Shown piece after piece: positions 2,255-63,404 of a stretch of 64,000 nucleotides of DNA. Within the stretch, counting starts at the first letter, position 1; every line of letters begins with the position of its first letter. The translations under genes and the position numbers were made by a program. The notes under the pieces are model-generated. The model was not told the origin of the DNA. It saw only the letters and a program-made list of their open reading frames with translations, and did not search any database. The stretch is from Brachynemurus nebulosus (taxonomy: Eukaryota; Arthropoda; Insecta; Neuroptera; Myrmeleontidae), in the NCBI GenBank assembly GCA_035578155.1, contig JAPWDM010000062.1:1-64000 (forward strand). The letters are read 5' to 3'.

Positions 2255-2255
<1 letters not shown>

Positions 2256-2887: not shown

Positions 2888-2892
<5 letters not shown>
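2255..2892. other. AT-rich spacer, nothing recognised
   Basis: About 640 bp between two TA tracts. I see no gene, TIR or tandem structure here. Confidence 0.5.

Positions 2893-2970
<78 letters not shown>
2893..2970. repeat. (TA)n microsatellite, left of MITE
   Basis: A pure TA tract directly abutting the MITE at 2971-3315. Confidence 0.95.
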
Positions 2971-3519
<549 letters not shown>

Positions 3520-10562: not shown

Positions 10563-10584
10563 TTATTATTATTATTATTATTAT

Positions 10585-10621
<37 letters not shown>

Positions 10622-10622
<1 letters not shown>

Positions 10623-11432
10623 ATTAAAATTGGGGTACTGCTGCCGGTGGATGGCGCGGTCAGCAGCACCCGGCGGCATCGCCAACTAAGGGCATGCGCC
10701 GCCACGCACGGTAAAATAAAAACATACACAAAACAGACAGGAACACATAAATGCAGTAGACAACGGACAAACATACACATAATAAAATCCATCGATGGGC
10801 CCTGCCATCCCAGGGCTTATAAAGAGCGGACAGTCCTTGGTGACGGTACGATAAGTACTAGACAGAGCGTCCGGTCACCAAGGCCTGGAAGCCATCGCTG
10901 GAACTCCCTCCGAGGTGTACAGGACCCCGGAGTGGAGAGAACCGACTAGAAACACTCAAAAAACAAGACTAGAAAAAAATCACAGTGTTATCACAGAAAA
11001 AACTTATTACATCGCTGGGAGGCCACAGGCCGACCAGCGACGCAATAAGGAGTTAAAACAATACCGCTGTGGAGCCATAACAACAGGCCCACAGCGGCAT
11101 AACAAAATATCACAGATAAATAAAAACAAGTGATGTACCACCTCGGGTGTAAAGGGCCTTCGGTGGTACGTCATTAAAAAACAATAACGAAAACAAATAA
11201 CAAGGTATAAATAACATACAGTACCACTAAGGGTGTAAAAGGCCCTTAGTGGCATAACAAAAGACTAAAAGTACCCTGCCAGACCAGCTGGAACAGGGTA
11301 TAGTTAATAAATAAATAAATTAAGACAATCACAAAAATTTTTGAAACACATAAATTAAAATCGCTGGGAGATAAAATTAACTGTCGGGGGAGATAAAACG
11401 AGACGACTTGTAAAATCTGAGATGGTATGCCC
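10622..11432 (-). repeat. LINE 3' UTR: array of diverse hairpins
   Basis: Successive inverted repeats occur here: CCACTAAGGG/CCCTTAGTGG with a 9-nt loop (11224-11252), TACCCTG/CAGGGTA near 11272-11300, GTACCACC/GGTGGTAC near 11134-11170, CCGCTGTGG/CCACAGCGG near 11062-11097, TCGCTGG/CCAGCGA near 11011-11040 and CCTTGGTGAC/GTCACCAAGG near 10835-10882. Some stems are separated by short A-rich linkers containing ATCACAG. Stem sequences differ while the architecture is kept. Confidence 0.75.
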
Positions 11433-15095: not shown

Positions 15096-15133
15096 TTTCG
15101 TTACTACTTAGGGTTGCTCCCTAGGAAGTGTGG

Positions 15134-16765: not shown

Positions 16766-17468
16766 AAACAAAAAACAAAAAAAACCCCACCCCGCTCCCC
16801 ACCCTCCACGGAGCCTCATAAGGGACGTGGGACTCCCACGCCAGGGATACGGGAATGAGGGGCCCTAGGGACGAAGCCCATTGCCCCAGTGACACGCACG
16901 ACCCCGGGGCGCTCGAATTTACTGCGGCCGGTGCATAACCGCAGCCACGGTCTATGCCTGAAGCCAGGGCCGAAGTGACGTGTTGTTCCGCCGTACTCGC
17001 AAGTAACGGCTTCCCTCAGTCACCAGGCTCCCCTTTTCCAGGCAACGCCGCTAAGCCACACACGAGCTAGTGTGGGTCCCGAAGATGACTTGAAGTTGGG
17101 ACAACAAAGAAGAACGAAAACAAAACAAAACCGAAAACAAAAAAGAAACAAAAGATAAAAGAAAATCTGAAACAAAAGGAAATAAAAGTAACGAAAACAA
17201 AAAACAATAAAAACGAAAAGAAATAAAAAGATAGGTTAAAAAAAAGAACGATCGAGGATTTCTCCTCTAGATCCGGCATCTTTTGTGAAAACGGTGGTAC
17301 CTCGAGAAGGAACGGTGCCGATCTTGGATAGTCAGAGGCTAATGGAATCCGAAGATTACTGTATTGCGCATGAACTACCCCTGGAACCCTTAGCCTCCTT
17401 GACACCAATGGGGGATAAATATCCCTCACGGGTGCCAAGGGCAGCTGCTATAGGTGTCCTCACCACCG

Positions 17469-17548: not shown

Positions 17549-18820
17549 TTTTTGTTACTTAAATTGGGGTACTGCTGCCAGTGAATCCCAGGGCTTCACA
17601 AAGAGTGGACAGTCCCCGGTGGCGGTACGCTAAGTGCTAGCCAGAGCGTCCGGTGTAAAGGGCCTCGGAATGGAGAAAACTGACTAGAAATATCCCAGAT
17701 AATATTAAAAAAAAATATAGAAATGAAAATCTTATTACGTCACTGGGGAGCTACAGGCCGACCAGTGCCGCAATAAGTAATTAAAACAGTACCGCTTAAG
17801 AGCCACAACAACAACCTCACAGCGGCACAACAAAATATCACAGATAAGAATAAAAGATGATGTATCACCTCGGGTGGAAAACGCCCTCAGTGGTACATCG
17901 TTAAAACAAAACATATTAAAAACAACCTTATTAAAAAACAAAAACAGCAATATCACAAGTTTCACAATATTTCTTGCTCTGTGACACGATTCCGCTCTCC
18001 ATGGTCTCGACAATTCCGAAATGGCTTCGTCAACACCTAGGAGCTCACACGTGTAGGGACAGTGACATCTGATTACTGAGCAACATGTACTGTTCTGTCA
18101 GATAACTGATACACGGGAGACCGGTACGATGACTAGGCCACGTTCGTCCGAGTCCAGGCTACAGAGAACGGGACAATGCCACAGAGTATCACAGTATATC
18201 TGACTTATGTCCCTATGACCCCGACGGAGCAAAACAGTCTCAGGGCGCTCAAGCTCGCATCCGTATGAGGGAAGACGACATCTCCTTACTAAGCGAGCTC
18301 GCTCAAGCTAATCGGGCAGATGTCGGCTCATACGCCTGGATGACGCGAACGAGTGCGTCGAGTACCGCATTCCTATCCGTCGAAGTCACAAGGACAAAAA
18401 ATCAACGCAATAACACAGCCAATCACTTTATCACTTTTGTGTCCACTGGCGTGTACCATCCAGGGGACACTATAAGATTTAAAAACAAATAAAAAAGCAG
18501 GATCACAGCACGAAATCACAGACAAAACTACACAAATCACAATATAAAAATATCACCATTCGACTTGGCGGAACACAAATCACGACTTTGATAATCACAC
18601 GCATACGGGTACCAAACGCACACGACTTGTTGTCAGACATCAGGGCGAAAGCTATCGTACAATCAGACGGTGGTGTTTTTCTCATACGGTGGATATCTCT
18701 GTCGGTCATACGATGTTCGTCCTCGTCGAAAAAAGACCAGAGCCTCGTCAGCCTGCTAGCCGAAGCTAACAGTTGCCCGCCAGGCACGAACGGGGACGTG
18801 AAGGTTGGATTTTAGCCCAG

Positions 18821-18821
<1 letters not shown>
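17470..18821 (-). mobile_element. Non-autonomous TAA-tailed element, copy 2
   Basis: The 5' end (about 18821, minus strand) has the same GCTGGGCTAAAATCCA start as copy 1. The 3' part is related to the LINE 3' UTR but lacks about 150 bp: the sequence jumps from GGTACTGCTGCC to the AATCCCAGGGCTTCAC segment near 17583. The tail is a long (TAA)n (17470-17548) directly abutting the LINE 5' end. ATCACAG motifs and hairpin modules recur throughout. No ORF. Confidence 0.72.
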
Positions 18822-18874
<53 letters not shown>

Positions 18875-19912
18875 TTTTTTTTAATTAAAATTGGGACACT
18901 GCTGCCGGTGGATGGCGCGGTCAGCAGTGTCCGGCGGCATCGCTATCGACGGGCATGCGCCGCCAAAACGGGAAAATGATAAAAACGACACATAAAGACA
19001 GGAACACATAAATGCAATAGACAACGGACAAACATACACATGATAAAATTCACCGATGAGCCCTGCCATCCCAGGGCTTCAAAACGAGCGGACAGTCCTT
19101 GGTGGCGGTACGCTAAGTACTAGCCAGAACGTCCGGTCACCAAGGACCGAAAACCAACGATGAAACTCCCTCCGAGGTGTAAAGGGCCCCGGAGTGGAGG
19201 AAACCGACTAGAGACACACAATAATAAAAAGAATAAAAAGTAAATATCACAGAGTGCATCACAGGACTCCACTGTACTCATGGGAGCCAGGAACCACCTA
19301 CCAGCGCAATGGACTAACAAACGAAAGAGGAAACAAAATATCACAGACAATCATCACAGGAACCCACTGCACTCATGGGGGGACTAAACCACCCAGTGTG
19401 CAGTGGGGATCATAACAACGCTGCCGGAGGCCCACAGAGCCTCCATTAGCTAAATAACAAACAAAAACTCAACAAGAAAGGAAATAACAAAAAAGAATAA
19501 CAACAGATTATCACAGTCAATATATATCACAATTAACCCACTGCATTTCTGAGCGCCTAAAACCGCCCAGGAATACAGTTGGGATCACAACAACACCGCT
19601 GGAGGACCTCCATGGGCCTCCAGTAGTAGAAAAAACACAATAAATCACAGTTCAAATATCACAGACAGCGCGTTACACCCCGAAAGTCCGAAATCATTCA
19701 ATGGTGCAACGAGTATACTAACAACACCTTTGGGAGCCCGCGGGCCCCCAGCGGCAAAAAAACACACAATGAACAAAAACAATAACAAACTTTGTGTTAA
19801 AATGATTTGTGTTCGTCTTATTTATTACCAAACCAGAGCCCCGTTTGCCTGCTAGCCAGCTAGCAGTTACCGCCGAGCACGACGAGGACGAGGGGATGGA
19901 TTTATGCCCGGC
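18822..19912 (-). mobile_element. Non-autonomous TAA-tailed element, copy 3
   Basis: A diverged family member. The 5' end reads GCCGGGCATAAATCCATCC and the 3' end CCAATTTTAATT followed by A-run and (TAA)n (18822-18880). Its central part has its own set of hairpins, for example CCCACTGCAC/GTGCAGTGGG at 19363-19407, again separated by ATCACAG linkers. No ORF. To its right (19913-19931) lies an interrupted ATT tract into which the DIRS element is inserted. Confidence 0.72.
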
Positions 19913-20154: not shown

Positions 20155-21578
20155 ATGACAGGAGAAAAGAAAAGAAAAAGATCTCGCTCGAGATCAAGAT
20201 CAAGGGACAGTAGAAGACGAAAGACCAACGAAAGATTTGAAAATATAGAAAAACAAATATCTAACCTAACTTTGTTGGTCACTAAAATGTTGGAAAAAAA
20301 TCCTAAAGTTACAAAAACATCATCACCGTCACTCCAGGAACTTCCAGGTAAATAAATACGAACAGATCATTAATTTCCATACGAGATTAATGTACTAGGA
20401 CAATAAAGTACTCAGCCTCCATACGAGGCGTATACATAAATAGATGTACGCATATACGTAAGTATCGTACAACTGTCTATACGACACAAAGTCCACACGA
20501 CAAAAAGTCTATACGACAAGATCCACAAAACTATAAATAAATAAAATAAATATTTATTTATATTAGCAAAGTCCATACGACTACGGCTAAATACATATAT
20601 GTATATATACAAGCGTTGAAGCGTATATATATATAATTATTAGATATGTATATAGGAAAATTAATAAAAAACACATGGGACTAATCAAAAAACACCCCTT
20701 TTCCTTTCAGTCCAACAAAATTCCGACCAGGTAGATAATGATAAGGAAAATTTGCCTCCTACAAATACAGTACCAACCGACAAAAAGTCGACTGAATCTT
20801 CCGAAATTGACGAAGCGTTAGAGCTTGAAGAGAGGAAATTTACCTAGAAATACTGGGTGAACATCCTGATGCAAGAAAAGAAATTCCCATTAAAATCAAT
20901 GACGAACTAAAAATCAGATGGCAGAAGTGGATACAGGAGGGCTACCCAGAAGATGACAAGAAAACTATTTTAGAAATTTATCCGAGGAAAGACGACTTAT
21001 ACACGGAAGCACCTAAGGTTAACCTGGAAATTAGTCATGTTATGACTGAAATTGCTATCAAACGAGACAAGCACTTTGCAGATACTCAAAATTGCATTGG
21101 CTCAGCAATTTCAGCACTGGGTGCCGCTGTCTCAATGGTTCTAGAGGAATCAGAAGACGGTGTAGATCAAGAGGTATTAATGAAGTACCTGTGTGATACC
21201 GGAAAACTATTAACGGATGTTTTCCACCAACATTCACTTGCTCGGAGGGCGTATATTACTCCATTAATGAGTAAGTCAATTAAACCAACTGTCGAAGCTA
21301 CTATAGCGGACGAGTGGTTGTACGGGAAAAAATTTGCGGAGCTGGTCAAAGAAGCCAAAGATGTCGAAAAGGCGTGCACCAGTATAAAAGCAACTGCTAA
21401 GACAACAAATCTGAAATCAAGGGACCAGGGAAACTTGAAGTACCCACCTGCCAAATACAAGCAGGTGGGGAATCAAAACAGGAAAATAGTAAAATTCAAG
21501 TCCAGGCCACAGAAAACCAACTACAACCCACCGAAATCCTTAAGCAAATCATCGAACCGTTACCCCCCGAGAAAATGA
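20155..21578 (+). pseudogene. DIRS gag-like ORF with intron and frameshift
   Basis: It starts at ATG 20155 with a basic RS-dipeptide-rich N-terminus (KRKRSRSRSRSR). The frame runs into a canonical-looking intron, CAG|GTAAAT at 20347 to TTTCAG at 20710, and continues as VQQNSDQVDNDKENLPP. A frameshift in a GA-rich run near 20830 puts TAG at 20845 in frame; the downstream reading frame (IYLEILGEHPD..., then 21042-21578) stays open to its stop, overlapping the RT start by 4 bp (ATGA). The C-terminal part contains a DEWLYGKKFAELVKEAKD segment and a basic tail, as in other DIRS Gag proteins. Splicing is inferred. Confidence 0.7.
20347..20710 (+). other. Probable intron within DIRS gag
   Basis: 364 bp with a GTAAAT donor and a polypyrimidine-TTTCAG acceptor. 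Removing it keeps the gag frame open across the junction. It contains several copies of a YCYATACGA motif (near 20379, 20418, 20478, 20512 and 20573). Confidence 0.65.
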
Positions 21579-23464
21579 ATGAGGTAAGCTTTCCGGCTGG
21601 TAGACTAAAATTATTTATTAAAGAATGGGAACAAATAACTACAGATAAATTCATACTACAATGCTTAAAAGGTTATAAAATACCTCTTAGGGAGACTCCA
21701 ACACAAACTATACTTCCAACAGATCAACAATGGTCTGAAAAGGAGCTCATGCAAATAAAAACAGAAATTAATAAGCTCTTATCCAAAAAGGTAATAGAGC
21801 AGTGTGATAAAAGGGAAGGTCAGTTTGTGTCTCCCTTCTTTCTAGTTGATAAACCGGACGGCTCTAGCAGATTCATTATTAACTTAAAGGGCTTAAATGA
21901 ATTTATAGATACTGAACACTTCAAAATGGAGGATATTAAATCTGCTAAACATTTAGTTTCAGCTGCTTGTTATATGTGCACTATAGACTTAAAAGACGCC
22001 TATTACTTGGTTCCTATTCACAAATCATTCCGGAAATTTTTACGATTCAAATTCCTTGGTAAAATATTTGAATTCACGTGCTTACCCTTCGGATTATGCA
22101 CGAGCCCCTTCGTGTATACGAAAATTATGAAACCAGTAATAAATAAAATCCGAGAAATGGGTATTCTATCATGTATTTATATTGATGACCTGTTACTGAT
22201 CGCTAAATCGTATAAATCTTGCAAAATTAATCTAAATTACGTAAAGAATCTGCTAGAACGTCTAGGATTTATTATCAACGTCGAAAAAAGCTCACAAGAA
22301 CCCAGCCAAAGATGCAAATATCTCGGTTTTATAATTAACTCTAAAGACTTCACTCTAGAGCTAACAGACAACAAAAAAGCACAAATAATTTCCTTAACGA
22401 AAAAGTTTGAATTGGGTAAATATTACAAAATTAGAGATTTTGCAAAACTGCTTGGAGTTCTAACCGCGGCTTGCCCAGCTGTCGCCTACGGTTCAGTTTA
22501 CTGTAAGAGGTTAGAAAGACAAAAATACCTTGCTCTGATCTTATGCAATAACAATTATGAAGGAAAAATTCACATAAATAATTCAATAACAGATGAACTG
22601 CGCTGGTGGGCAAGTATCACGCCAACCGCGGCAAACCCGATAAGAAGTCAAAAATTTAAATTAGAAATATCCTCAGATGCTTCTCTAATTGGATGGGGAG
22701 CGCACTGTAATGGAAAAAATGCCCACGGTTTCTGGACAAAAGAGGAAAGAAAATATAGTATCAATTATTTAGAACTCCTAGCAGCTTACTTTGGCCTAAA
22801 ATGCTTCGCAGATAAATTGGGGGAATGTGAAATATTATTAAGAATAGACAACACATCTGTTATATCATACATTAACCGAACAGGTGGTATTCAATATCCT
22901 CACCTGAATGAATTAACGAGAAAAATCTGGCAATGGTGCGAAAGAAGAAAAATCTGGATTTACGCGTCCTATATCCCATCAGCACAAAACATAGAAGCTG
23001 ATAAAGCATCAAGAATAACTAACATAGACACTGAGTGGGAACTATGCACCAGGGCATTTAAAGAAATACACCAAAACCTCGGACCTTTTACAATTGACTT
23101 ATTTGCATCGAGATTAAACAAAAAATGCCAGAGATTTTGCTCACGTTTCCCAGATCCAGAAGCTATGGCAGTTGATGCTTTTACCATACCATGGACAAAT
23201 GAAAAAATATATGCTTTTCCTCCTTTCGCACTTGCTCTTAGAACTTTAAGGAAAATAATTCTTGACAAAGCAGAGGGTACGGTCGTTTTACCGCTATGGC
23301 CAACACAACCATGGTACCCTCTCTTTACTTCACTGCTCACATCAACACCTATTATTTTTAAGCCAAATAAAAACTTATTAATATCTCCTTCCAGAGAAGA
23401 GACGCACCCGTTAGCATCGAAGCTTTCACTAGTGGCAGGGACCTTATCAGGGAAGCTTTTCTAA
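21575..23464 (+). CDS. DIRS reverse transcriptase / RNase H
   Basis: An intact 629-aa ORF. The RT domain has FLVDKPDGSSRFI, IDLKDAYYLVPI, LPFGLCTSPF and the catalytic YIDD near residue 201. An RNase H-like domain begins near 366 (SSDASLIGWGAH) and continues with INYLELLA and RIDNTSVISYINR. The C-terminal third carries the TIDLFASRLN...AFPPFALALR...LPLWPTQPWYP pattern characteristic of DIRS polyproteins. The start ATG overlaps the gag stop; the end overlaps the upstream part of the recombinase frame. It copies element RNA into DNA, including the circular intermediate. Confidence 0.92.
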   Translation: MNEVSFPAGRLKLFIKEWEQITTDKFILQCLKGYKIPLRETPTQTILPTDQQWSEKELMQIKTEINKLLSKKVIEQCDKREGQFVSPFFLVDKPDGSSRFIINLKGLNEFIDTEHFKMEDIKSAKHLVSAACYMCTIDLKDAYYLVPIHKSFRKFLRFKFLGKIFEFTCLPFGLCTSPFVYTKIMKPVINKIREMGILSCIYIDDLLLIAKSYKSCKINLNYVKNLLERLGFIINVEKSSQEPSQRCKYLGFIINSKDFTLELTDNKKAQIISLTKKFELGKYYKIRDFAKLLGVLTAACPAVAYGSVYCKRLERQKYLALILCNNNYEGKIHINNSITDELRWWASITPTAANPIRSQKFKLEISSDASLIGWGAHCNGKNAHGFWTKEERKYSINYLELLAAYFGLKCFADKLGECEILLRIDNTSVISYINRTGGIQYPHLNELTRKIWQWCERRKIWIYASYIPSAQNIEADKASRITNIDTEWELCTRAFKEIHQNLGPFTIDLFASRLNKKCQRFCSRFPDPEAMAVDAFTIPWTNEKIYAFPPFALALRTLRKIILDKAEGTVVLPLWPTQPWYPLFTSLLTSTPIIFKPNKNLLISPSREETHPLASKLSLVAGTLSGKLF

Positions 23465-23493
23465 GAAGAGGAATAGATGGAGGATCTGCAGAC

Positions 23494-24402
23494 GTGATGG
23501 TGAATTCTATAGCCGCTGCAACACTGAAACAATATCAGGGCCCACTAAAACAATGGTGGGAGTTCTGCTTAAAAAATAAAATCTCAAAATTTGATGCTAA
23601 TATCACCGACATTATACGATTCTTAACCACGAAATTCGAGCAGGGTGCAAGTTATGGAACGTTAAACTCTATCAGATCAGCTATCTCTCTCATTTCTTCA
23701 CGAGACATATCTGACGATAAACTTCTCTCAAGATTTTTCAAAGGGATACACAGACAAAAACCACCGAGACCTAAATTCTCAAGTACCTGGGACACAGCAC
23801 CGGTTCTCCATTATATTGGAAACCTACCTCCTCTAAATACATTGAATCTGAAAGAAGCAGCTGAAAAAGTAGCTACGCTACTAATTCTAACAACAGCACA
23901 TCGACTTCAAACAATCTCGCTAATTAACATAAAAAATATAGTTATTAAAGAATCAGGAATCTCAATAAAAATTCCTGATCTAATAAAAACATCTAAACCT
24001 GGCAAAAATCAGCCAGACCTCTTCTTGCCACTCTTCCAAGAAAAGCCAGAAATTTGCGTAGCTTCTGCCGTAAAAGATTACCTTAAAATAACAGAAAAAT
24101 TCAGAAATAACGAAAACAACCGGTTATTCATATCATCCCACAAATCATATAAAAACGTGTCGGCACAAACGATTAGCCACTGGATTAAGTCTCTTCTTAC
24201 AAAAGCAGGAATTGATACAGATCAATTCACCGCATACAGCACAAAGCATGCAGCAGTATCCGCTGCTCTTCGCAAAGGAGTCGATGTTGATACAATTAGA
24301 CGCACCGCAGGCTGGTCTAAAAACTCCAAAACCTTTGCTACATTCTACAATCGACCGATCCAGGACAATGAAAAGTTTGCCAATTCAATCTTGACTACTT
24401 AG
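23494..24402 (+). CDS. DIRS tyrosine recombinase, altered active site
   Basis: The frame is open upstream of 23494 and overlaps the RT end (SGRDLIREAFLRRG precedes), so the true start is probably earlier; the first Met in this frame is at 23497. It has an N-terminal SAM-like core-binding region (TLKQYQGPLKQWWEFC) and a catalytic domain with Arg in HRLQT (codon at 23902), a C-terminal AGWSKNSKTFATFYNRPI block and the nucleophile Tyr at 24346. The second box, HxxR in tyrosine recombinases, reads YSTK here (Tyr codon 24235, Lys codon 24244), so two catalytic residues appear substituted and activity is doubtful. It would integrate the circular DNA copy. Confidence 0.87.
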   Translation: MMVNSIAAATLKQYQGPLKQWWEFCLKNKISKFDANITDIIRFLTTKFEQGASYGTLNSIRSAISLISSRDISDDKLLSRFFKGIHRQKPPRPKFSSTWDTAPVLHYIGNLPPLNTLNLKEAAEKVATLLILTTAHRLQTISLINIKNIVIKESGISIKIPDLIKTSKPGKNQPDLFLPLFQEKPEICVASAVKDYLKITEKFRNNENNRLFISSHKSYKNVSAQTISHWIKSLLTKAGIDTDQFTAYSTKHAAVSAALRKGVDVDTIRRTAGWSKNSKTFATFYNRPIQDNEKFANSILTT

Positions 24403-25807: not shown

Positions 25808-26552
<745 letters not shown>

Positions 26553-36532: not shown

Positions 36533-36538
36533 ACTATT
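36533..36538 (+). repeat. Left 6-bp target-site duplication (ACTATT)
   Basis: Identical to 46771-46776 and immediately outside the AGTAGTAG end of the palindrome. Confidence 0.7.
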
Positions 36539-36573
36539 AGTAGTAGAAATATGAGAGTTTGGGGCCCACCTTC

Positions 36574-36609
36574 CCACCTGCCGACTTTTTGAGTGACCTC
36601 GGCAGGTGG
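36574..36609. repeat. Terminal hairpin of left arm
   Basis: CCACCTGCCGA (36574-36584) pairs perfectly with TCGGCAGGTGG (36599-36609) around a 14-nt loop. A second GC-rich inverted motif (CGAGGC/GCCTCCG) follows near 36620-36645. The mirrored hairpin is at 46700-46735. Confidence 0.8.
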
Positions 36610-36668
36610 TAAAACTACCGAGGCGGTTCTAGAAGCCTCCGGCGGTGGGTGGAGCAAAAATTTTTTTC

Positions 36669-36757
36669 TAGCCTAGCGGAACTTGATCCAACCTAAGAGA
36701 ACCTAAGGAAATTTGGTGTAACCTAACAAAAATTTTTTTAACCTAAGAATTTAAAAA
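36669..36757. repeat. CCTAA-rich subterminal block
   Basis: Four copies of AACCTAA occur within ~65 bp (near 36690, 36701, 36722 and 36739). TTAGG is the common insect telomere unit, but the copies are irregular here. Mirrored at about 46552-46640. Confidence 0.4.
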
Positions 36758-36975
36758 TTCCGTAATAGATGGCGCAGCCACCTTCGAGCCCTGTGAATTC
36801 GCTACTAGATGGCGCGGCCACCTTCGAGCCTGTGAATTCGCTACTAGATGGCGTTGCTAGTCTGGATTCCTGTGTGTAAGTTTGAAAAATTGTCAATAGA
36901 TGGCATCGAAAACCTTTTTTTTTTGATAGTTAAACTAGCCATTAAAAGATGGCCTTGCTTTCATAATTTTATAAT

Positions 36976-37254
36976 ATTTTTATCTGAAAACAGGCTTAAA
37001 CTGTCAGCTGACGCCACTAAAGGTAAACTGATATCAAACAGCGAAGATTTCTCTCTAATATGCAAAAATGAATTTTATCATATGATTGTATATTTTTATC
37101 TGAAAACAGGTTTAAACTTGTATAAATTGCCAGCTGACGTCACTAAAGGTAAACTGATATCAAATAGCGAAGATTTCTGTCTAATATGCGAAAATGAAGC
37201 AGCAGGTTTTAACCTGTATGGCTACATAAAGTGTGACAGCTGACGTCACCATAC
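36976..37254 (+). promoter_or_regulatory. Duplicated upstream module with CRE-like sites
   Basis: A ~100-bp module is repeated (36976-37073 and 37091-37197; shared AAAGGTAAACTGATATCAAA). CAGCTGACGTCA, an E-box fused to a CRE-like TGACGTCA, occurs at about 37129 and 37237, with a CAGCTGACGCCA variant near 37003. It ends 13 bp upstream of the TATA box of the 132-aa gene. An open frame (36848-37243) crosses this region in both arms, but its overlap with the repeats and promoter argues against a gene. Confidence 0.6.
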
Positions 37255-37266
37255 TATTTTTTCTGC

Positions 37267-37297
37267 TATAAAAAGGGCGCGACAGAATTTCATCAGT
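37267..37297 (+). promoter_or_regulatory. TATA box and initiator of the 132-aa gene (left)
   Basis: TATAAAAA at 37267 and the arthropod initiator-like TCAGTT at 37293-37298, 28 bp from the T of TATA to the A of TCAGT. The predicted leader to ATG 37395 is about 100 nt. Confidence 0.75.
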
Positions 37298-37394
37298 TGC
37301 AATTTTGTTCGAAACTTTAGTGAAAAAAAAAACATTAAACCTTATTGTTGTGAATTTTCAATTGTTGTGTGTTAAGAGTTAATTGTTGCCAACA

Positions 37395-37793
37395 ATGGAA
37401 TCCATTACTGCTGGTGCTTCATCTGGAAACAGAGACTTAATTCAAAAAATGGCTGGAAATTTTGTGGATGAATTGAATCATCTTGACGCTGTTAAACGAT
37501 GGATTAAACTTTCTGATATGGAAATTGGAAAAGTATATAAAATAATGGGAGCCAGTCAACTACCATCGAAATTCGATTCATCGAAAATGAAGACAATATT
37601 GGAATTGGAAATTGGATACATTTCGTTACCGGCGAGATTTGACAATTTGAACGAGCAGATGCTGGCATGGTTGCAAAGCAATCCAAAACTTGGTATTATG
37701 AATAATGGACCAATTGGACTAACTCATAAATTGCAATTCAAAACGTTGGATCTTCTTGAAATCGTGGAGGATGCTGAATGGCGAATTTTGTAA
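37395..37793 (+). CDS. Small 132-aa protein, left-arm copy
   Basis: ATG at 37395 sits in a strong context (CAACAATGG). The protein begins MESITAGASSGN and has a core pattern KVYKIMGASQLPSKF...LELEIGYISLPARF...LAWLQSN...LTHKLQF. The alternating hydrophobic strands and 'YISLPARF' word suggest a small beta-rich, possibly OB-like nucleic-acid-binding fold; this is inference, and I do not recognise the family with certainty. It has no signal peptide or membrane segment. The right-arm copy (45516-45914) encodes the identical protein. The TATA/initiator promoter lies upstream, with an AATAAAA signal and an A-rich tract (37879-37941) downstream. It is convergent with the 381-aa gene of the same arm. 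Confidence 0.8.
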   Translation: MESITAGASSGNRDLIQKMAGNFVDELNHLDAVKRWIKLSDMEIGKVYKIMGASQLPSKFDSSKMKTILELEIGYISLPARFDNLNEQMLAWLQSNPKLGIMNNGPIGLTHKLQFKTLDLLEIVEDAEWRIL

Positions 37794-37875
37794 TTTATTC
37801 TCTTCAAAAATGTATTATTTAATTGTACTATGTATTTTAAAAAATTTCAATATTGTATCAATTTTTACATATATT

Positions 37876-37941
37876 TAATAAAAAATTATAAAAAAACAAA
37901 AAAAAAAAACAAAAAAAAAAACAAAAAACAAAAAAAAAAAA
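37876..37941 (+). terminator. Poly(A) signal and A-rich tract (left)
   Basis: AATAAAA about 85 bp after the stop codon, followed by an (A)nC tract of about 50 bp. Mirrored at about 45369-45434. Confidence 0.6.
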
Positions 37942-40095
37942 ATTCGATTTTTTTTTCAATACCCATCGCTAGACATTGATTTATATTCTAGTTTTGATTA
38001 TGCAAGATTAATAAATAAACATTATTTGGTGTTTAATAAAAAATTTAAAAAATCGATTTTTCAATTCAGGTCTCGTCTCTAAATCACAATTTTTGAACTA
38101 AGTATAAATCAATAATACATATGAGTAATATTTGATATGCATTGTATTGTTAGGTTTTATGGTGAATAATTATAAAACAAAAAAAAGATTTAATATCCCC
38201 TGAAAACGAAAAATTTAATTTTTCACATGCTTAATAAAAATTATTTTTCAAGTTTAATAAAAATTATTCTTTATAAAATCGTCTATCAAATATTAGCCTT
38301 GCACATAATATAAGAAATGCTGATTTGCTAAAATATAAATCTTGGAATGTGGATACATAATGTTATAAGTCCAATACGTTCATACATATGTATATATGAA
38401 TATTACATTGTAATACAGGTATTCGCTATATCTATAAGAATCGTGTTTAAAAGCCAAATTTATTTTCCCGAATTTTTTAAAATATATATAGTAATATAAT
38501 ATTTCGCATATATACAGTACTCTGTTAAAAGTACGGGTTTCTACACCGTTAAAAAAAAAACATATATTTTACAATATCAATATATTGTAAAAATCATATT
38601 TTTTAATATTTTTAAAACTGAATATGTAATATCAAGAATTTAAAACAGTTTTGAAACATTAATTTCTCCTCATAATATTTTTTTAGTCTTAAATTAATAG
38701 CACAATGTTCCATATATTTTAAGAAAATTTTTCTTTTAATATTTTATAACTTATCTAAAAATTTATAGCTATTTTTATCAAAAATTTATTACTTGCTATT
38801 GTTAAAAAATTAGTTGAATATATCTATAGGTGTTAAGTGACCCCTAGTTTTGTGAAAGACGGTAGTAATAGCAATTCATCTTAAATACGAAATTATTTTA
38901 TCAATGCTAAATAAGCGTTTTTTTTTCTCATATTATCATACTCCAATATATTGTATATTATTATAATTTATAAAAATGTGTTTTATTTATTAAAAAAATT
39001 TAGCAAAATTTTAAATATTATCGCGTCAAAATAATATTCAGAAGTCAATAAGAGACAATAGCAGTAAATTTATTAAGATAACTATAAATAAATATTAATC
39101 TAATGTTGAAATATTTATTAACAAATAGTATTACTTAGTAGAAAATTAGGTACCTATTGTTTTGTTTTCAAATTTACCTTTTTGCAATTAAAGAAAATTT
39201 TAGTAACTATCGATACCTATATAAAACGATACCCATAAAAGACAAGCATGCTCTGATCTCAACAATTTTTTCCCATGTTAAATTCGTATGTTCTTACTTC
39301 GCTGAAACTTATTATGTTTATATATTCCCCCAATATTTTCTACCATAAACAATAGCTATAGTAAGCTAGGTAGGTATTGAATAAGTATTTTTTGTTTGTT
39401 AATTTATTGATGATAGAGAAAAAAAAATTTATGTTTTTATAGACAGTGAAATACTTTTAAACTATTTTTTTGCAGTTTAATTTTGTAAAAACACCTAAAA
39501 ATTATCAGTCACAGACAAATATTTCTAAGCAAACGAATTGAAAATGTAGTTTTATATCATAAGAATAAATGCGTATATATAGGGTGGACAGTAAATAACT
39601 CTCATAATTTTTAAAGAGCGGATGAAAACTTTAATTTTGGATTACGAAATTTTATTTTTTTTTCCGGAGTTAAGCTGCATTCAATTAATTAACCCTTTCC
39701 TGCGCAGCAGTTTTACATCATTACTGTTCAAACTATACTTCAAATTAACAAATCATTAATAACATGGGTAAATACTTATTAGCAAGAATTACATAGTTTA
39801 CACATATGTTCTATCACACCAGAATGTTAATAGGACAATGCGATTTAATTGCCTATATTCAGGAGCAAGCAAAAACATTACCTATTTCAATAGCTTAGAA
39901 AATACACATTACATTTTTTTTTCGTTGTAAGAACAATCATTTCGGTGATCTTTTTTAACGAATTACTAAAATTGCTTAAGGACTATGGTATGTAAGAAAT
40001 AACAACACTCACATAATTTTAAACTAATTAACGTACAGCTATTGGAAAAGTTACAAAGATTTTTTTAACAACTTATTAAATGTTGATAGCTTATT
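37942..40095. other. Left-arm AT-rich region without ORFs
   Basis: About 2.2 kb between the two convergent genes, conserved almost base for base in the right arm (43213-45368). No ORF with coding features; a short open frame at 39157-39348 is not supported. Its conservation probably reflects arm homogenisation. Confidence 0.6.
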
Positions 40096-41241
40096 TTAAT
40101 ATCTTCTATAGGGTCGTAAGTATAACCCTAAACCCGAAATATTTTCATTACCATCGTTGACGACTATATTCTCGTCATCATCAGCTTCTCCTTCGCTCGC
40201 AGTATCTTCGTTGTCGCTAGCAGATGTTTTTTCATCGCTGTCTTCGTCATCATTTGATATATACTTTAGCACTGGTTCAATAATATCATGCTTTTCCAAT
40301 TCCCTGGTTATTGAGATAATCCGCTTTCCAATGTCACTTTCCTTTAAATTATTAAAATGGCTTCGTTTTTTCTCGTTTTCGATATAATCCGCAAAGCTGG
40401 GATTTATAATATGACTCCTTTCCATTAAATTATATATAGTATTAACCATTTCTTCTCCAATTTGCGTCTGAGTCGCTAAACTTCTTAGTTCATCAACTAA
40501 ATGGTTCGGGTCATCAAAATATTCTTCATCATCAACAGGTTTCGAATAGCCATTATGAAGGTTAGTATTTTCATCATCATATTTGAAACGTTTAGCTTCT
40601 CCATTTATTGAATTAGATGTTGAAGGTTGGTCCTTTTCTTCCGAATTTTTATCTTCTTGTTCTTCATCCTTTGCGCATGCGTTCTGAAGCTCTTTGACCA
40701 TTAATATGTCTAGAGCAGTTTGTAAGAGACCAGCTATCTTTGGAGTAAAACTTGTTTCTTTGTAGTTATCAGGCGATGGTAAATGCTTTTGTTCATCAGA
40801 TCCATTATCTTCGACATTTACCGATTGTAGAATATTATGCGAGTTTTTTAAAGCGTGGAATTTACTTCTGATTGCTTCTGCTGCAGCCATCATACTTTCA
40901 TCAAAAGTATTCAAGTTTCTTTTAGATAGATCTGTATCATTTTCGTGTTGATTTTGAAATACTGGTGCTTTATCTTCCTTTTCTTCATTTCTTGCTTCAA
41001 AACTATATTCGGTTTCATTATCATCATATTCATCATTAGATTTTGACGATTCACTTTGTCTCCTGTTCTCCGCGCTGTTCACTTGTGTCCCATTATTTAC
41101 CGTGGTATATTCAAACTGATTATTTCCGATCTGGTCATTATTGTTTGTTTGATGTTCCTGAGCATGCACTCTTCTTTTCATATGACGTAAAAGAGAACTT
41201 CTCCGCGAAAATGTCTTGTCACAACGTATACAATTAAACAT
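40096..41241 (-). CDS. C2H2 zinc-finger acidic protein, left-arm copy
   Basis: 381 aa starting MFNCIRCDKTF. One N-terminal C2H2 finger (CxxC-x12-H-x5-H; C4, C7, H20, H26) is followed by a basic RRVHAQ, a polar Asn/Ser/Glu-rich middle and a strongly acidic C-terminus (DDEDSDEKTSASDNEDTA) ending LGLYLRPYRRY. The layout of a DNA-binding finger plus acidic region suggests a transcriptional regulator or an origin-binding factor of the element; this is inference. It differs from the right-arm copy at only three residues (Gly/Ala, Tyr/Asn, Asn/Lys). Transcription would start near the central repeats and run outward. No homologue recognised. Confidence 0.8.
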   Translation of the reverse strand: MFNCIRCDKTFSRRSSLLRHMKRRVHAQEHQTNNNDQIGNNQFEYTTVNNGTQVNSAENRRQSESSKSNDEYDDNETEYSFEARNEEKEDKAPVFQNQHENDTDLSKRNLNTFDESMMAAAEAIRSKFHALKNSHNILQSVNVEDNGSDEQKHLPSPDNYKETSFTPKIAGLLQTALDILMVKELQNACAKDEEQEDKNSEEKDQPSTSNSINGEAKRFKYDDENTNLHNGYSKPVDDEEYFDDPNHLVDELRSLATQTQIGEEMVNTIYNLMERSHIINPSFADYIENEKKRSHFNNLKESDIGKRIISITRELEKHDIIEPVLKYISNDDEDSDEKTSASDNEDTASEGEADDDENIVVNDGNENISGLGLYLRPYRRY

Positions 41242-41251
41242 TTTGAAAGAT

Positions 41252-41315
41252 GTGAATAGTTCGATTTATAACATAACACTGATTAGTTTTTATATCGACA
41301 TGATCTTATATAGTA
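41252..41315 (-). promoter_or_regulatory. TATA/initiator of the left zinc-finger gene
   Basis: The mirror of 41996-42030: TATATAAG about 32 bp before an ATCAGTG initiator-like motif, with an ATATAAAA between. It lies between the central repeats and the ATG. Confidence 0.7.
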
Positions 41316-41339
41316 CAACCAGAGCAGAATTGACGTAAA

Positions 41340-41968
41340 GTAATGACACCAAAATGCACCAAAGGTGCACCAAATGACACCAAACTGCACCAAAGGTGCA
41401 CCAAATGACACCAAACTGCACCAAAGGTGCACCAAATGACACCAAACTGCACCAAAGGTGCACCAAATGACACCAAACTGCACCAAATGACACCAAAATG
41501 CACCAAAGGTGCACCAAATGACACCAAACTGCACCAAAGGTGCACCAAAATGCACCAAAGGTGCACCAAATGACACCAAACTGCACCAAAGGTGCACCAA
41601 ATGACTTTGGTGCACCTTTGGTGCAGTTTGGTGTCATTTGGTACAACTTTGGTGCATTTTGGTGTCATTTGGTGCAGTTTGGTGTCATTTGGTGCACCTT
41701 TGGTGCAGTTTGGTGTCATTTGGTGCACCTTTGGTGCATTTTGGTGTCATTTGGTGCAGTTTGGTGTCATTTGGTGCACCTTTGGTGCAGTTTGGTGTCA
41801 TTTGGTGCACCTTTGGTGCATTTTGGTGTCATTTGGTGCAGTTTGGTGTCATTTGGTGCACCTTTGGTGCAGTTTGGTGTCATTTGGTGCAGTTTGGTGT
41901 CATTTGGTGCACCTTTGGTGCAGTTTGGTGTCATTTGGTGCACCTTTGGTGCATTTTGGTGTCATTAC
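41340..41968. repeat. Central inverted field of ~31-bp repeats
   Basis: Left half: tandem GGTGCACCAAA/TGACACCAAACTGCACC units (41340-41601, ~260 bp). Right half: the inverse (41606-41968, ~360 bp). The inversion point is about 41603, CCAAA-TGAC-TTTGG. Units are built from TTTGGTGCAC, CTTTGGTGCAG and TTTGGTGTCA, so TTTGGTG recurs about every 10-11 bp; GGTGCACC is itself palindromic. Unit order varies (some ~20-bp units). Long ORFs here are artefacts of the periodicity. Confidence 0.9.
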
Positions 41969-41995
41969 TTTACGTCAATTCTGCTCTGGTTGTAC

Positions 41996-42030
41996 TATAT
42001 AAGATCATGTCGATATAAAAACTAATCAGT
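41996..42030 (+). promoter_or_regulatory. TATA/initiator of the right zinc-finger gene
   Basis: TATATAAG at 41996 and ATCAGTG at 42025; a second TATA-like word (GATATAAAA) lies at 42012. ATG follows at 42067. Confidence 0.7.
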
Positions 42031-42066
42031 GTTATGTTATAAATCGAACTATTCACATCTATCAAA

Positions 42067-43212
42067 ATGTTTAATTGTATACGTTGTGACAAGACATTTT
42101 CGCGGAGAAGTTCTCTTTTACGTCATATGAAAAGAAGAGTGCATGCTCAGGAACATCAAACAAACAATAATGACCAGATCGCAAATAATCAGTTTGAATA
42201 TACCACGGTAAATAATGGGACACAAGTGAACAGCGCGGAGAACAGGAGACAAAGTGAATCGTCAAAATCTAATGATGAAAATGATGATAATGAAACCGAA
42301 TATAGTTTTGAAGCAAGAAATGAAGAAAAGGAAGATAAAGCACCAGTATTTCAAAATCAACACGAAAATGATACAGATCTATCTAAAAGAAACTTGAATA
42401 CTTTTGATGAAAGTATGATGGCTGCAGCAGAAGCAATCAGAAGTAAATTCCACGCTTTAAAAAACTCGCATAATATTCTACAATCGGTAAATGTCGAAGA
42501 TAATGGATCTGATGAACAAAAGCATTTACCATCGCCTGATAACTACAAAGAAACAAGTTTTACTCCAAAGATAGCTGGTCTCTTACAAACTGCTCTAGAC
42601 ATATTAATGGTCAAAGAGCTTCAGAACGCATGCGCAAAGGATGAAGAACAAGAAGATAAAAATTCGGAAGAAAAGGACCAACCTTCAACATCTAATTCAA
42701 TAAATGGAGAAGCTAAACGTTTCAAATATGATGATGAAAATACTAACCTTCATAATGGCTATTCGAAACCTGTTGATGATGAAGAATATTTTGATGACCC
42801 GAACCATTTAGTTGATGAACTAAGAAGTTTAGCGACTCAGACGCAAATTGGAGAAGAAATGGTTAATACTATATATAATTTAATGGAAAGGAGTCATATT
42901 ATAAATCCCAGCTTTGCGGATTATATCGAAAACGAGAAAAAACGAAGCCATTTTAATAATTTAAAGGAAAGTGACATTGGAAAGCGGATTATCTCAATAA
43001 CCAGGGAATTGGAAAAGCATGATATTATTGAACCAGTGCTAAAGTATATATCAAATGATGACGAAGACAGCGATGAAAAAACATCTGCTAGCGACAACGA
43101 AGATACTGCGAGCGAAGGAGAAGCTGATGATGACGAGAATATAGTCGTCAACGATGGTAATGAAAAAATTTCGGGTTTAGGGTTATACTTACGACCCTAT
43201 AGAAGATATTAA
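42067..43212 (+). CDS. C2H2 zinc-finger acidic protein, right-arm copy
   Basis: 381 aa, with the same architecture as 40096-41241: one N-terminal C2H2 finger, a polar middle and an acidic C-terminus with an RPYRRY end. It differs from the left copy at three residues, two in the N-terminal third and one near the C-terminus. Both copies are open, which implies recent duplication, gene conversion between arms, or selection. It is transcribed outward from the central repeat field and converges on the 132-aa gene of this arm. Confidence 0.8.
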   Translation: MFNCIRCDKTFSRRSSLLRHMKRRVHAQEHQTNNNDQIANNQFEYTTVNNGTQVNSAENRRQSESSKSNDENDDNETEYSFEARNEEKEDKAPVFQNQHENDTDLSKRNLNTFDESMMAAAEAIRSKFHALKNSHNILQSVNVEDNGSDEQKHLPSPDNYKETSFTPKIAGLLQTALDILMVKELQNACAKDEEQEDKNSEEKDQPSTSNSINGEAKRFKYDDENTNLHNGYSKPVDDEEYFDDPNHLVDELRSLATQTQIGEEMVNTIYNLMERSHIINPSFADYIENEKKRSHFNNLKESDIGKRIISITRELEKHDIIEPVLKYISNDDEDSDEKTSASDNEDTASEGEADDDENIVVNDGNEKISGLGLYLRPYRRY

Positions 43213-45368
43213 AATAAGCTATCAACATTTAATAAGTTGTTAAAAAAATCTTTGTAACTTTTCCAATAGCTGTACGTTAATTATTTTAAAATTATGTGAG
43301 TGTTGTTATTTCTTACATACCATAGTCCTTAAGCAATTTTAGTAATTCGTTAAAAAAGATCACCGAAATGATTGTTCTTACAACAAAAAAAAATGTAATG
43401 TGTATTTTCTAAGCTATTAAAATAGGTAATGTTTTTGCTTGCTCCTGAATATAGGCAATTAAATCGCATTGTCCTATTAACATTCTGGTGTGATAGAACA
43501 TATGTGTAAACTATGTAATTCTTGCTAATAAGTATTTACCCATGTTATTAATGATTTGTTAATTTGAAGTATAGTTTGAACAGTAATGATGTAAAACTGC
43601 TGCGCAGGAAAGGGTTAATTAATTGAATGCAGCTTAACTCCGGAAAAAAAAAATAAAATTTCGTAATCCAAAATTAAAGTTTTCATCCGCTCTTTAAAAA
43701 TTATGAGAGTTATTTACTGTCCACCCTATATATACGCATTTATTCTTATGATATAAAACTACAGTTTCATTTCGTTTGCTTAGAAATATTTGTCTGTGAC
43801 TGATAATTTTTAGGTGTTTTTACAAAATTAAACTGCAAAAAAATAGTTTAAAAGTATTTCACTGTCTATAAAAACATAAATTTTTTTTTTCTCTATCATC
43901 AATAAATTAACAAACAAAAAATACTTATTCAATACCTACCTAGCTTACTATAGCTATTGTTTATGGTAGAAAATATTGGGGGAATATATAAACATAATAA
44001 GTTTCAGCGAAGTAAGAACATACGAATTTAACATGGGAAAAAATTGTTGAGATCAGAGCATGCTTGTCTTTTATGGGTATCGTTTTATATAGGTATCGAT
44101 AGTTACTAAAATTTTCTTTAATTGCAAAAAGGTAAATTTGAAAACAAAACAATAGGTACCTAATTTTCTACTAAGCAGTACTATTTGTTAATAAATATTT
44201 CAACATTAGATTAATATTTATTTATAGTTATCTTAATAAATTTACTGCTATTGTCTTTTATTGACTTCTGAATATTATTTTGACGCGATAATATTTAAAA
44301 TTTTGCTAAATTTTTTTAATAAATAAAACACATTTTTATAAATTATAATAATATACAATATATTGGAGTATGATAATATGAGAAAAAAAAACGCTTATTT
44401 AGCATTGATAAAATAATTTCGTATTTAAGATGAATTGCTATTACTACCGTCTTTCACAAAACTAGGGGTCACTTAATACCTATAGATATATTCAACTAAT
44501 TTTTTAACAATAGCAAGTAATAAATTTTTGATAAAAATAGCTATAAATTTTTAGATAAGTTATAAAATATTAAAAGAAAAATTTTCTTAAAATATATGGA
44601 ACATTGTGCTATTAATTTAAGACTAAAAAAATATTAGGAGGAGAAATTAATGTTTCAAAACTGTTTTAAATTCTTGATATTACATATTCAGTTTTAAAAA
44701 TATTAAGAAATATGATTTTTACAATATATTGATATTGTAAAATATATGTTTTTTTTTTAACGGTGTAGAAACCCGTACTTTTAACAGAGTACTGTATATA
44801 TGCGAAATATTATATTACTATATATATTTTTAAAAATTCAGGAAAATAAATTTGGCTTTTAAACACGATTCTTATAGATATAGCGAATACCTGTATTACA
44901 ATGTAATATTCATATATACATATGTATGAACGTATTGGACTTATAACATTATGTATCCACATTCCAAGATTTATATTTTAGCAAATCAGCATTTCTTATA
45001 TTATGTGCAAGGCTAATATTTGATAGACGATTTTATAAAGAATAATTTTTATTAAACTTGAAAAATAATTTTTATTAAGCATGTGAAAAATTAAATTTTT
45101 CGTTTTCAGGGGATATTAAATCTTTTTTTTGTTTTATAATTATTCACCATAAAACCTAACAATACAATGCATATCAAATATTACTCATATGTATTATTGA
45201 TTTATACTTAGTTCAAAAATTGTGATTTAGAGACGAGACCTGAATTGAAAAATCGATTTTTTAAATTTTTTATTAAACACCAAATAATGTTTATTTATTA
45301 ATCTTGCATAATCAAAACTAGAATATAAATCAATGTCTAGCGATGGGTATTGAAAAAAAAATCGAATT
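43213..45368. other. Right-arm AT-rich region without ORFs
   Basis: The mirror of 37942-40095 with scattered single-base differences. No supported coding region. Confidence 0.6.
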
Positions 45369-45434
45369 TTTTTTTTTTTTGTTTTTTGTTTTTTTTTTTG
45401 TTTTTTTTTTTGTTTTTTTATAATTTTTTATTAA
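45369..45434 (-). terminator. Poly(A) signal and A-rich tract (right)
   Basis: The inverse of 37876-37941: a T-rich tract with the complement of AATAAAA downstream of the 132-aa gene on the minus strand. Confidence 0.6.
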
Positions 45435-45515
45435 ATATATGTAAAAATTGATACAATATTGAAATTTTTTAAAATACATAGTACAATTAAATAATACATT
45501 TTTGAAGAGAATAAA

Positions 45516-45914
45516 TTACAAAATTCGCCATTCAGCATCCTCCACGATTTCAAGAAGATCCAACGTTTTGAATTGCAATTTATGAGTTAGTCCAATTGGT
45601 CCATTATTCATAATACCAAGTTTTGGATTGCTTTGCAACCATGCCAGCATCTGCTCGTTCAAATTGTCAAATCTCGCCGGTAACGAAATGTATCCAATTT
45701 CCAATTCCAATATTGTCTTCATTTTCGATGAATCGAATTTCGATGGTAGTTGACTGGCTCCCATTATTTTATATACTTTTCCAATTTCCATATCAGAAAG
45801 TTTAATCCATCGTTTAACAGCGTCAAGATGATTCAATTCATCCACAAAATTTCCAGCCATTTTTTGAATTAAGTCTCTGTTTCCAGATGAAGCACCAGCA
45901 GTAATGGATTCCAT
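45516..45914 (-). CDS. Small 132-aa protein, right-arm copy
   Basis: Encodes the same 132-aa sequence as the left copy, starting from the inverse of the same CAACAATGG start. The inverted TATA box (about 46036-46043) and initiator (about 46013) are kept. Function unknown; a beta-rich, possibly OB-like fold is inferred only from residue patterns. It reads inward and converges on the right zinc-finger gene. Confidence 0.8.
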   Translation of the reverse strand: MESITAGASSGNRDLIQKMAGNFVDELNHLDAVKRWIKLSDMEIGKVYKIMGASQLPSKFDSSKMKTILELEIGYISLPARFDNLNEQMLAWLQSNPKLGIMNNGPIGLTHKLQFKTLDLLEIVEDAEWRIL

Positions 45915-46012
45915 TGTTGGCAACAATTAACTCTTAACACACAACAATTGAAAATTCACAACAATAAGGTTTAATGTTTTTTTTTTCACTAAAGTTTCGA
46001 ACAAAATTGCAA

Positions 46013-46043
46013 CTGATGAAATTCTGTCGCGCCCTTTTTATAG
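46013..46043 (-). promoter_or_regulatory. TATA box and initiator of the 132-aa gene (right)
   Basis: The inverse of 37267-37297. The duplicated module with CRE-like sites continues to about 46335; in this copy one site reads TGATGTCA instead of TGACGTCA. Confidence 0.7.
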
Positions 46044-46699
46044 CAGAAAAAATAGTATGGTGACGTCAGCTGTCACACTTTATGTAGCCATACAGGTTAA
46101 AACCTGCTGCTTCATTTTCGCATATTAGACAGAAATCTTCGCTATTTGATATCAGTTTACCTTTAGTGACATCAGCTGGCAATTTATACAAGTTTAAACC
46201 TGTTTTCAGATAAAAATATACAATCATATGATAAAATTCATTTTTGCATATTAGAGAGAAATCTTCGCTGTTTGATATCAGTTTACCTTTAGTGGCGTCA
46301 GCTGACAGTTTAAGCCTGTTTTCAGATAAAAATATTATAAAATTATGAAAGCAAGGCCATCTTTTAATGGCTAGTTTAACTATCAAAAAAAAAAGGTTTT
46401 CGATGCCATCTATTGACAATTTTTCAAACTTACACACAGGAATCCAGACTAGCAACGCCATCTAGTAGCGAATTCACAGGCTCGAAGGTGGCCGCGCCAT
46501 CTAGTAGCGAATTCACAGGGCTCGAAGGTGGCTGCGCCATCTATTACGGAATTTTTAAATTCTTAGGTTAAAAAAATTTTTGTTAGGTTACACCAAATTT
46601 CCTTAGGTTCTCTTAGGTTGGATCAAGTTTCGCTAGGCTAGAAAAAAATTTTTGCTCCACCCACCGCCGGAGGCTTCTAGAACCGCCTCGGTAGTTTTA

Positions 46700-46735
46700 C
46701 CACCTGCCGAGGTCACTCAAAAAGTCGGCAGGTGG
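46700..46735. repeat. Terminal hairpin of right arm
   Basis: The mirror of 36574-36609, with the same 11-bp perfect stem. Confidence 0.8.
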
Positions 46736-46770
46736 GAAGGTGGGCCCCAAACTCTCATATTTCTACTACT

Positions 46771-46776
46771 ACTATT
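46771..46776 (+). repeat. Right 6-bp target-site duplication (ACTATT)
   Basis: Identical to 36533-36538. The terminal (ACT)n run makes the exact border slightly ambiguous. Confidence 0.7.

Positions 46777-63318: not shown

Positions 63319-63404
<86 letters not shown>
63319..63404. repeat. (TA)n microsatellite
   Basis: A pure TA tract of about 85 bp. Confidence 0.95.

Follow-up and report, generated by a model that had tools for sequence, protein, structure and literature searches.

Autonomous Polintons are elements of 15-20 kb that carry capsid, ATPase and protease genes, and non-autonomous partners are familiar for cut-and-paste transposons. Vertebrate Mavericks have 5′-(AGT)2//(ACT)2-3′ ends and perfect 6-bp target-site duplications (PMC8097293). 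Here, we analyze a palindromic element of 10,232 bp in a 64-kb stretch of the genome of the neuropteran Brachynemurus nebulosus (contig JAPWDM010000062.1, positions 1 to 64,000 of the forward strand, hereafter the window). The element occupies positions 36539-46770, has AGTAGTAG at its left end and CTACTACT at its right, and is flanked on both sides by ACTATT. We propose that it is probably a Polinton satellite, palindromic and non-autonomous, whose dimeric form arose through fold-back copying within a self-complementary array.

The palindrome, its ends and the 6-bp duplication are confirmed at this locus. An earlier inspection, the sequence-only reading, had placed ACTATT on both outer sides, where we find it at 36533-36538 and 46771-46776, and had judged two inverted arms of ~5.1 kb to be ~99% identical. 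Without the central array, the arms measure 4803 and 4804 bp and differ by 24 substitutions and 3 gap columns (99.4% identity); with part of the array included, they are 99.2% identical over 5.07 kb (BLASTN). Its assignment of the ends to the Polinton type agrees with the AGT-type tandem ends in inverted repeat and the 6-bp duplication. A 7-bp direct repeat, TACTATT, is a possible alternative at the cost of the symmetry of the ends; the chance of one given 6-bp match is 6.5e-4 at the local composition. Going inwards along each arm, a 39-bp repeat is followed by a gene termed P1, a spacer of ~2.3 kb, a zinc-finger gene in convergent orientation relative to P1 and, innermost, a 31-bp tandem array. 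The features are the following:

36533..36538, strand not applicable: left target-site duplication, ACTATT
36539..46770, strand not applicable: entire palindromic element, 10,232 bp
36539..37117, + strand: left terminal 579 bp, matching at 97.2% identity the terminal inverted repeats (576 bp) of 17.8-kb Polintons
36539..38481, + strand: left arm, outer 1943 bp, matching an end of the C84 28.4 Mb element (17.9 kb) at ~97% identity
36766..36853, + strand: subterminal 39-bp tandem repeat (2.2 copies) containing AGATGGCG, with a mirror copy at 46456-46543
37395..37793, + strand: gene P1, 132 amino acids (aa), left copy, with TATA at 37267, an initiator-like TCAGT at 37293 and AATAAA at 37877
40096..41241, - strand: gene for a C2H2 zinc-finger, acidic protein, 381 aa, left copy
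41342..41605, + strand: left half of the central 31-bp tandem array, with self-complementary units GCACCAAAGGTGC
41565..41642, strand not applicable: fold-back junction, a perfect 37-bp stem (41565-41601 with 41606-41642) and a 4-nt loop, TGAC (41602-41605)
41606..41966, - strand: right half of the central array, in the opposite orientation
42067..43212, + strand: second copy of the zinc-finger gene, 381 aa, with TATA at 41996 and TCAGT at 42026
44828..46770, - strand: right-arm counterpart of the outer 1943 bp, placed by symmetry, the arms having no indel in that part
45516..45914, - strand: second copy of P1, with the same protein sequence
46192..46770, - strand: right copy of the terminal 579 bp, placed by symmetry
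46771..46776, strand not applicable: right target-site duplication, ACTATT

The element is one of at least dozens of palindromic copies in this genome. When the assembly from which the window comes (960 Mb, 138 contigs) was searched with the zinc-finger protein, at least 108 matches were obtained at 95-100% identity (108 of 3355 first-look candidates were scored); stops are absent in 103 of these and present in five. Among the matches listed, 82 form 41 divergent pairs, 0.6-2.4 kb apart, and 26 are single. We read the ends of 21 pairs, namely that of the window plus 20 from the remaining 40; here, as for the terminal-repeat pairs described below, the end was set at whichever AGTAGT start fitted best within 40-45 bases of the arm boundary. 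Matching arms were found in 17 pairs, 16 of which have a perfect 6-bp duplication, every one of a different sequence; the duplication of the seventeenth, C66, has one mismatch. The 16 measured relatives are 9.5-11.9 kb long. Two copies (C1 115 Mb and C1 131 Mb) carry additional AGT units at one of their ends, which slippage at the tip would be expected to produce. The sequence-only reading had called the element mobile and looked to further copies with common ends and 6-bp duplications; mobility can indeed be inferred from the many copies, each with its own duplication, perfect in 16 of the 17 resolved pairs and in 9 of the 11 terminal-repeat pairs described next.

The terminal sequence is shared with Polintons of the same genome. 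The terminal 362 bp of the window element, used as a query, gave at least 41 matches (40 of 2457 candidates were scored), from which we examined 11 inverted terminal-repeat pairs, window included, leaving out one 18.2-kb pair and others. Nine have perfect 6-bp duplications; that of C1 131 Mb has two mismatches, and C74 has no AGTAGT at its right end, so that its duplication was not set. Four of the 11 pairs belong to longer elements, of which three measure 17.8-17.9 kb and the fourth 14.3 kb. All four have a 6-bp duplication of their own, and their terminal repeats, no longer than 576 bp, show 97.2% identity to the terminal 579 bp of the window element. This figure refers to the side of each long element where the match stops at the repeat; on the other side, it continues into the window arm, for 1.68-1.85 kb. 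In the C84 28.4-Mb copy, the match extends to arm position 1943 and then ends (2.5 kb were read), and it includes P1.

The gene content of another copy, C91, which was read in separate pieces, identifies it as a Polinton. It carries P1 (96%), and has matches above the Pfam cut-off to an rve integrase (PF00665, 6.7e-12), an A32-like ATPase (PF04665, 2.7e-7) and a PLA2-like core protein (PF08398, 8.5e-15). A chromodomain behind the integrase (0.00085) and a C48-protease match fall below the cut-off, and a protease-like frame matches PDB entry 6lj9 (4.8e-5). A frame of 716 aa has the motifs D..NLYG, NS.FG and Y.DTDS, which we take to be typical of family B polymerases (PolB), making a PolB in C91 likely, though not proven. 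The Polinton sharing terminal sequence that the sequence-only reading had looked for was thus found in the same genome (97.2% over 579 bp), and its description of the element as non-autonomous agrees with a terminal sequence in common with an integrase-bearing Polinton and the absence of an integrase and PolB of its own. To judge from these sequences, the window element lacks the genes of an autonomous Polinton and shares the ends expected of a Polinton-derived non-autonomous element, each arm apparently being composed of a Polinton-derived outer end of ~1.9 kb (terminal repeat and P1) and an inner core (zinc-finger gene and array). Elsewhere in the genome, PF03175 (PolB) has at least 193 matches (75 of 1288 candidates were scored). 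They are scattered over many places, in open frames that reach 1427 aa, so that Polinton-like elements are numerous in this genome. One locus, L130, is a deletion derivative, in which the terminal 352 bp are fused directly to the 3′ part of a zinc-finger gene (79% amino-acid identity).

Two further motifs were seen close to the ends. Three AGATGGCG boxes per arm, within the subterminal 39-bp repeats (36766-36853 and 46456-46543), resemble an insulator-type motif, and four AACCTAA boxes inside the terminal repeat (36690-36746, with mirror copies in the right arm) resemble the insect telomere repeat. Parvovirus-type genomes have terminal hairpins and an HUH nickase; the folding of the ends into hairpins is weak here (z -2.0) and was not used as an argument.

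The zinc-finger gene is not tied to the ends found in the window. We compared the terminal 350 bp of 16 palindromes, all of them drawn from zinc-finger matches of at least 95% identity, with those of the window element, the Polintons C91 and C84 and one more terminal-repeat element, grouping them by single linkage at 80% with gaps counted as differences. Six palindromes have AGTAGTGGGTTTTGG ends that are unrelated to those of C91 (33-34% identity), while seven have ends 66-70% identical to C91. The ends of L032 are isolated (41%), and those of L038 and L110 (73-76%) group with the window and the Polintons. The outer 1.46 kb of the C1 18.8 Mb palindrome has no match to the window arm. By this comparison, the zinc-finger gene appears with at least two end types other than that of the window.

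The two arms of a copy are generally more alike than the same sequences in different copies. In the zinc-finger genes of 20 copies, own arms differ by 0-4 bases (mean 0.12%) vs. 1.7% between copies, and the other arm of the same element is strictly the nearest sequence for 35 of 40; the five exceptions are the window right arm, one C122 arm, one C1 58.8-Mb arm and two ties in C1 72 Mb. Near the ends, no substitution separates the arms in 13 of 16 copies that had been pre-selected for matching arms, two of these 13 having 1 and 3 gap columns. The ratio of nonsynonymous to synonymous changes (dN/dS) in the zinc-finger gene is 0.43 (Nei-Gojobori, ratio of means over 179 of 190 left-arm pairs, namely those computable with dS above 0; the pairs are not independent). 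We also considered coding constraint between the arms of the window element itself, with 3 substitutions in 1545 coding vs. 21 in 3261 non-coding positions (p 0.047), and rejected it as evidence in favor of the ratio between copies, as p rises to 0.21 once six sites in poly(A) tracts are removed.

At the centre of the window element, 110 bp without a match between the arms lie inside the 31-bp tandem array, which consists of 8 + 8 self-complementary units in unequal halves (264 vs. 361 bp), the strand switching at 41605/41606. The left half folds much better than its shuffles (z -4.7). Stems of at least 16 bp with short loops occur in 5 of 21 centres (stem/loop: 37/4, 77/6, 24/6, 217/7 and 16/5). 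In L056 and L063, the central repeat is a different one, with a 16-bp unit GAGTCACTCCCAAAAT, and L056 has its perfect 217-bp stem there. The variation of the centres between copies fits repeated re-formation, but recombination within the array would fit as well.

P1 and the zinc-finger gene are the only genes encoded by the element, as the sequence-only reading had it (two proteins per monomer, no integrase or polymerase): the largest frames in the spacer are of 68 aa, no PolB or rve integrase is encoded, and no capsid, ATPase or protease gene was recognised in the 10.2 kb. The P1 proteins of both arms are identical and the zinc-finger proteins differ at 3 positions. TATA/TCAGT promoters, such as those listed above, are of the arthropod type. 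In 300 Markov-2 shuffles of the arm, an open reading frame of 381 aa was never reached and one of 132 aa was reached three times; the length of P1 alone is therefore weak evidence. Of the 19 other stretches compared, however, 13 contain P1, with an amino-acid identity of 94-98%. Reading the outermost 1.46 kb of the C1 18.8 Mb palindrome and 1.85 kb inside another four window-like ends (L139, L141, L144 and L145) revealed no P1, which thus is not universal. One weak C2H2 finger, and no more, is recognisable in the 381-aa protein.

Relatives of these proteins outside this genome were not found at E≤1 in a protein collection, in a search that requires shared 5-residue words (5 word-sharing candidates for P1 and 1885 candidates for the zinc-finger protein). 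Insects are represented in this collection, since a control query, the DIRS-type reverse transcriptase of the window, gave 1578 matches that included named insects. In IMG/VR no relative of either protein was found, nor any in phages, searched with P1 only; an exact 19-base match to the terminus in IMG/VR had no extension and was regarded as chance. NCBIfam gave no match, nor did Rfam at gathering scores. Neither protein matched nickase families or the PolB and helicase families that bidnaviruses, with their encapsidated ssDNA, have on their segments. The zinc-finger protein has short matches to Polinton proteins (12 residues of the tail, E 0.001; 22 N-terminal residues, E 7e-4) and to a 368-aa frame (E 0.025 or worse), all of them leads only; the tail of the C91 core protein (L146:1777-2607), GTGLYLKPYRRGLGLYIE, resembles that of the zinc-finger protein, SGLGLYLRPYRRY. 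We consider P1 and the zinc-finger protein likely to be DNA-binding proteins or accessories of replication or packaging.

We propose the following scheme, in which both the dependence on a helper and the fold-back step are inferred. The protein-primed polymerase of a helper Polinton would start at the AGT-repeat end and copy inwards; the strand would then fold on itself within the array and be copied back, so that a dimer results with the same Polinton end on both sides, and the helper integrase would insert this dimer, creating the 6-bp duplication. The arms would be identical at the start because both derive from one molecule, and a swap of the outer end would be visible on both sides because it would occur in the monomer. 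Symmetric ends of differing types are most simply explained by such an exchange in the monomer followed by dimer copying, the main rival being gene conversion. More tentatively, and with slightly less than even confidence, we suggest an endogenous satellite lineage of Polintons that passes through a hairpin monomer each cycle, whose core captures the ends of different Polinton families and whose palindrome is rebuilt at every mobilisation. The sequence-only reading had proposed a head-to-head dimer of a linear virus- or plasmid-like genome; the palindromic layout stands, while the free-standing virus-like monomer gives way to a Polinton end of ~1.9 kb joined to a zinc-finger/array inner part.

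Several points weigh against this scheme. Four of the 21 pairs have no arm match in the stretches read. In one of them, C122, read 4 kb to each side, only the left side has a window-like end; another, C1 58.8 Mb, may be asymmetric, its window-like end (84% alike) having been found only to the left, with P1 in the right stretch. The arms of C1 98 Mb are only 96.6-98.3% alike. The choice of copies with matching arms for the outer comparison also counts here, as do the other three of those 16 copies, with 15, 5 and 2 substitutions and 24, 45 and 1 gap columns. No clean stem is seen in the remaining 16 of the 21 centres, at least two of which (L057 and L069) seemingly have the array in a single orientation. 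As to the helper, its existence is suggested by the shared ends, and the inner core, short pieces aside, did not turn up in those parts of the Polintons that were read. The PolB-like frame of C91, identified through its motifs, has no PolB family or chain match in Pfam, PHROGs or PDB, and matches a PF03175-positive stretch of the genome weakly (E 0.031).

Some of these observations would also be expected if the palindrome had arisen once, long ago, and moved intact ever since, with gene conversion keeping the arms identical. Under such a history, 17 symmetric pairs among the 21 examined need no further explanation, and the right zinc-finger copy of the window, which differs at 1 position from that of another element vs. 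3 from its own left copy, fits exchange between elements and is a further point against our scheme. However, the same zinc-finger gene is accompanied by several end types, one of them unrelated to that of the window, on both arms in the 17 resolved pairs, the centres vary among copies, and conversion would need to keep the arms alike over ~5 kb each in the majority of copies. We consider a single origin rather unlikely. Slightly more doubtful still is the view that these are ordinary Polintons with internal deletions and unusually long terminal repeats, with no special replication cycle. An end of 1.94 kb in common with a full-size element agrees with it, as does the existence of the further deletion derivative L130; the zinc-finger gene, on the other hand, is missing, short pieces aside, from the Polinton pieces read, and is common to elements with different ends, with a dN/dS below 1. 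It is because of this missing core, the different ends and the dN/dS that we favor a maintained family over repeated random deletion.

The elements could also be autonomous in a new way, with the zinc-finger protein or P1 itself acting as a recombinase or replication initiator. We think this improbable: a single weak C2H2 finger is recognisable, the ends and the size of the duplication match those of integrase-carrying elements, and P1 is not universal among the stretches read, even though the dN/dS of ~0.43 between copies of the zinc-finger gene, and the lack of a relative for either protein in the protein collection or IMG/VR, or for P1 in phages, would suit an activity of this kind. Very unlikely indeed is an assembly artefact, in which a fold-back read or a missed adapter doubled one arm. 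Short-loop fold-back junctions do look like such artefacts, but the flanks here differ and the duplication coincides precisely with the ends of the element, an arrangement that a fold-back artefact would not create; moreover, the arms are separated by 24 substitutions and the divergent layout recurs at 41 places.

The window contains other mobile elements and repeats. A DIRS-type element (21042-24402) has a reverse transcriptase with RNase H-like and Dam-like matches and a tyrosine recombinase; the best named match of its reverse transcriptase is from the bee Hylaeus volcanicus (82% identity over 81% of the length). Taken by themselves, this match and the TATA/TCAGT promoters would point to an insect host, possibly a hymenopteran, although mobile elements may be misleading in this respect. 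A long interspersed element (11433-16819) has a 1220-aa frame with endonuclease, reverse transcriptase and RNase H, and an upstream 561-aa frame with CCHC-like knuckles seen by eye; repeated stretches lie beside it (9028-11177 and 17707-19264). A second reverse-transcriptase-type locus, at 4920-8335, looks broken, with frames of 540, 181 and 317 aa (by eye). Long (TA)n tracts are found at 2181-3516, 25923-26213 and 63320-63403, among other repeats.

Among the closest known systems are the (adintovirus-like) Polintons/Mavericks, with which the element shares the AGT-type tandem ends, the 6-bp duplication and, in the case of the 17.8-kb elements, the terminal repeat and P1. It differs from them in being a palindrome of ~10 kb whose whole length is an inverted repeat, without a recognised polymerase, integrase, ATPase or capsid gene. 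Foldback (FB) elements also have long inverted repeats with inner tandem repeats of ~31 bp, but these are associated with 9-bp duplications and no AGT ends, in contrast to the 6-bp duplications (16 of 17) and AGT ends found here. Symmetric adenovirus recombinants, protein-primed linear genomes made palindromic by duplication of their left ends, are sporadic, whereas the palindrome here belongs to a multicopy integrated family. Bidnaviruses have been derived from Polintons, and their second segment (VD2) has been proposed to have kept its ends and replaced its genes (PMC4061559); also described are adintoviruses and Vesanto virus, a bidna-like virus of many segments, some of them possibly satellites (PMC8363768). 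Such segments resemble our element in being short, with Polinton-like ends and genes proposed to be replaced, but they are virus segments with terminal repeats rather than integrated palindromes. We found no description of a palindromic gene-bearing Polinton satellite in the parts consulted of the open-licence literature (PMC8097293, PMC4061559, PMC8363768 and PMC6431247 included), Repbase and most subscription papers lying outside the search. If this gene-bearing, fully palindromic family does borrow Polinton ends, satellites exist for Polintons just as they do for viruses; the identity of the arms could then act as an insertion clock, as with long terminal repeats, and the fold-back centres may record the copying step, offering a handle on the replication of protein-primed eukaryotic elements. 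The palindrome differs from virophages and similar satellite systems in having no recognised capsid genes, but, like them, it would be a small element relying on a larger relative for its replication and integration.

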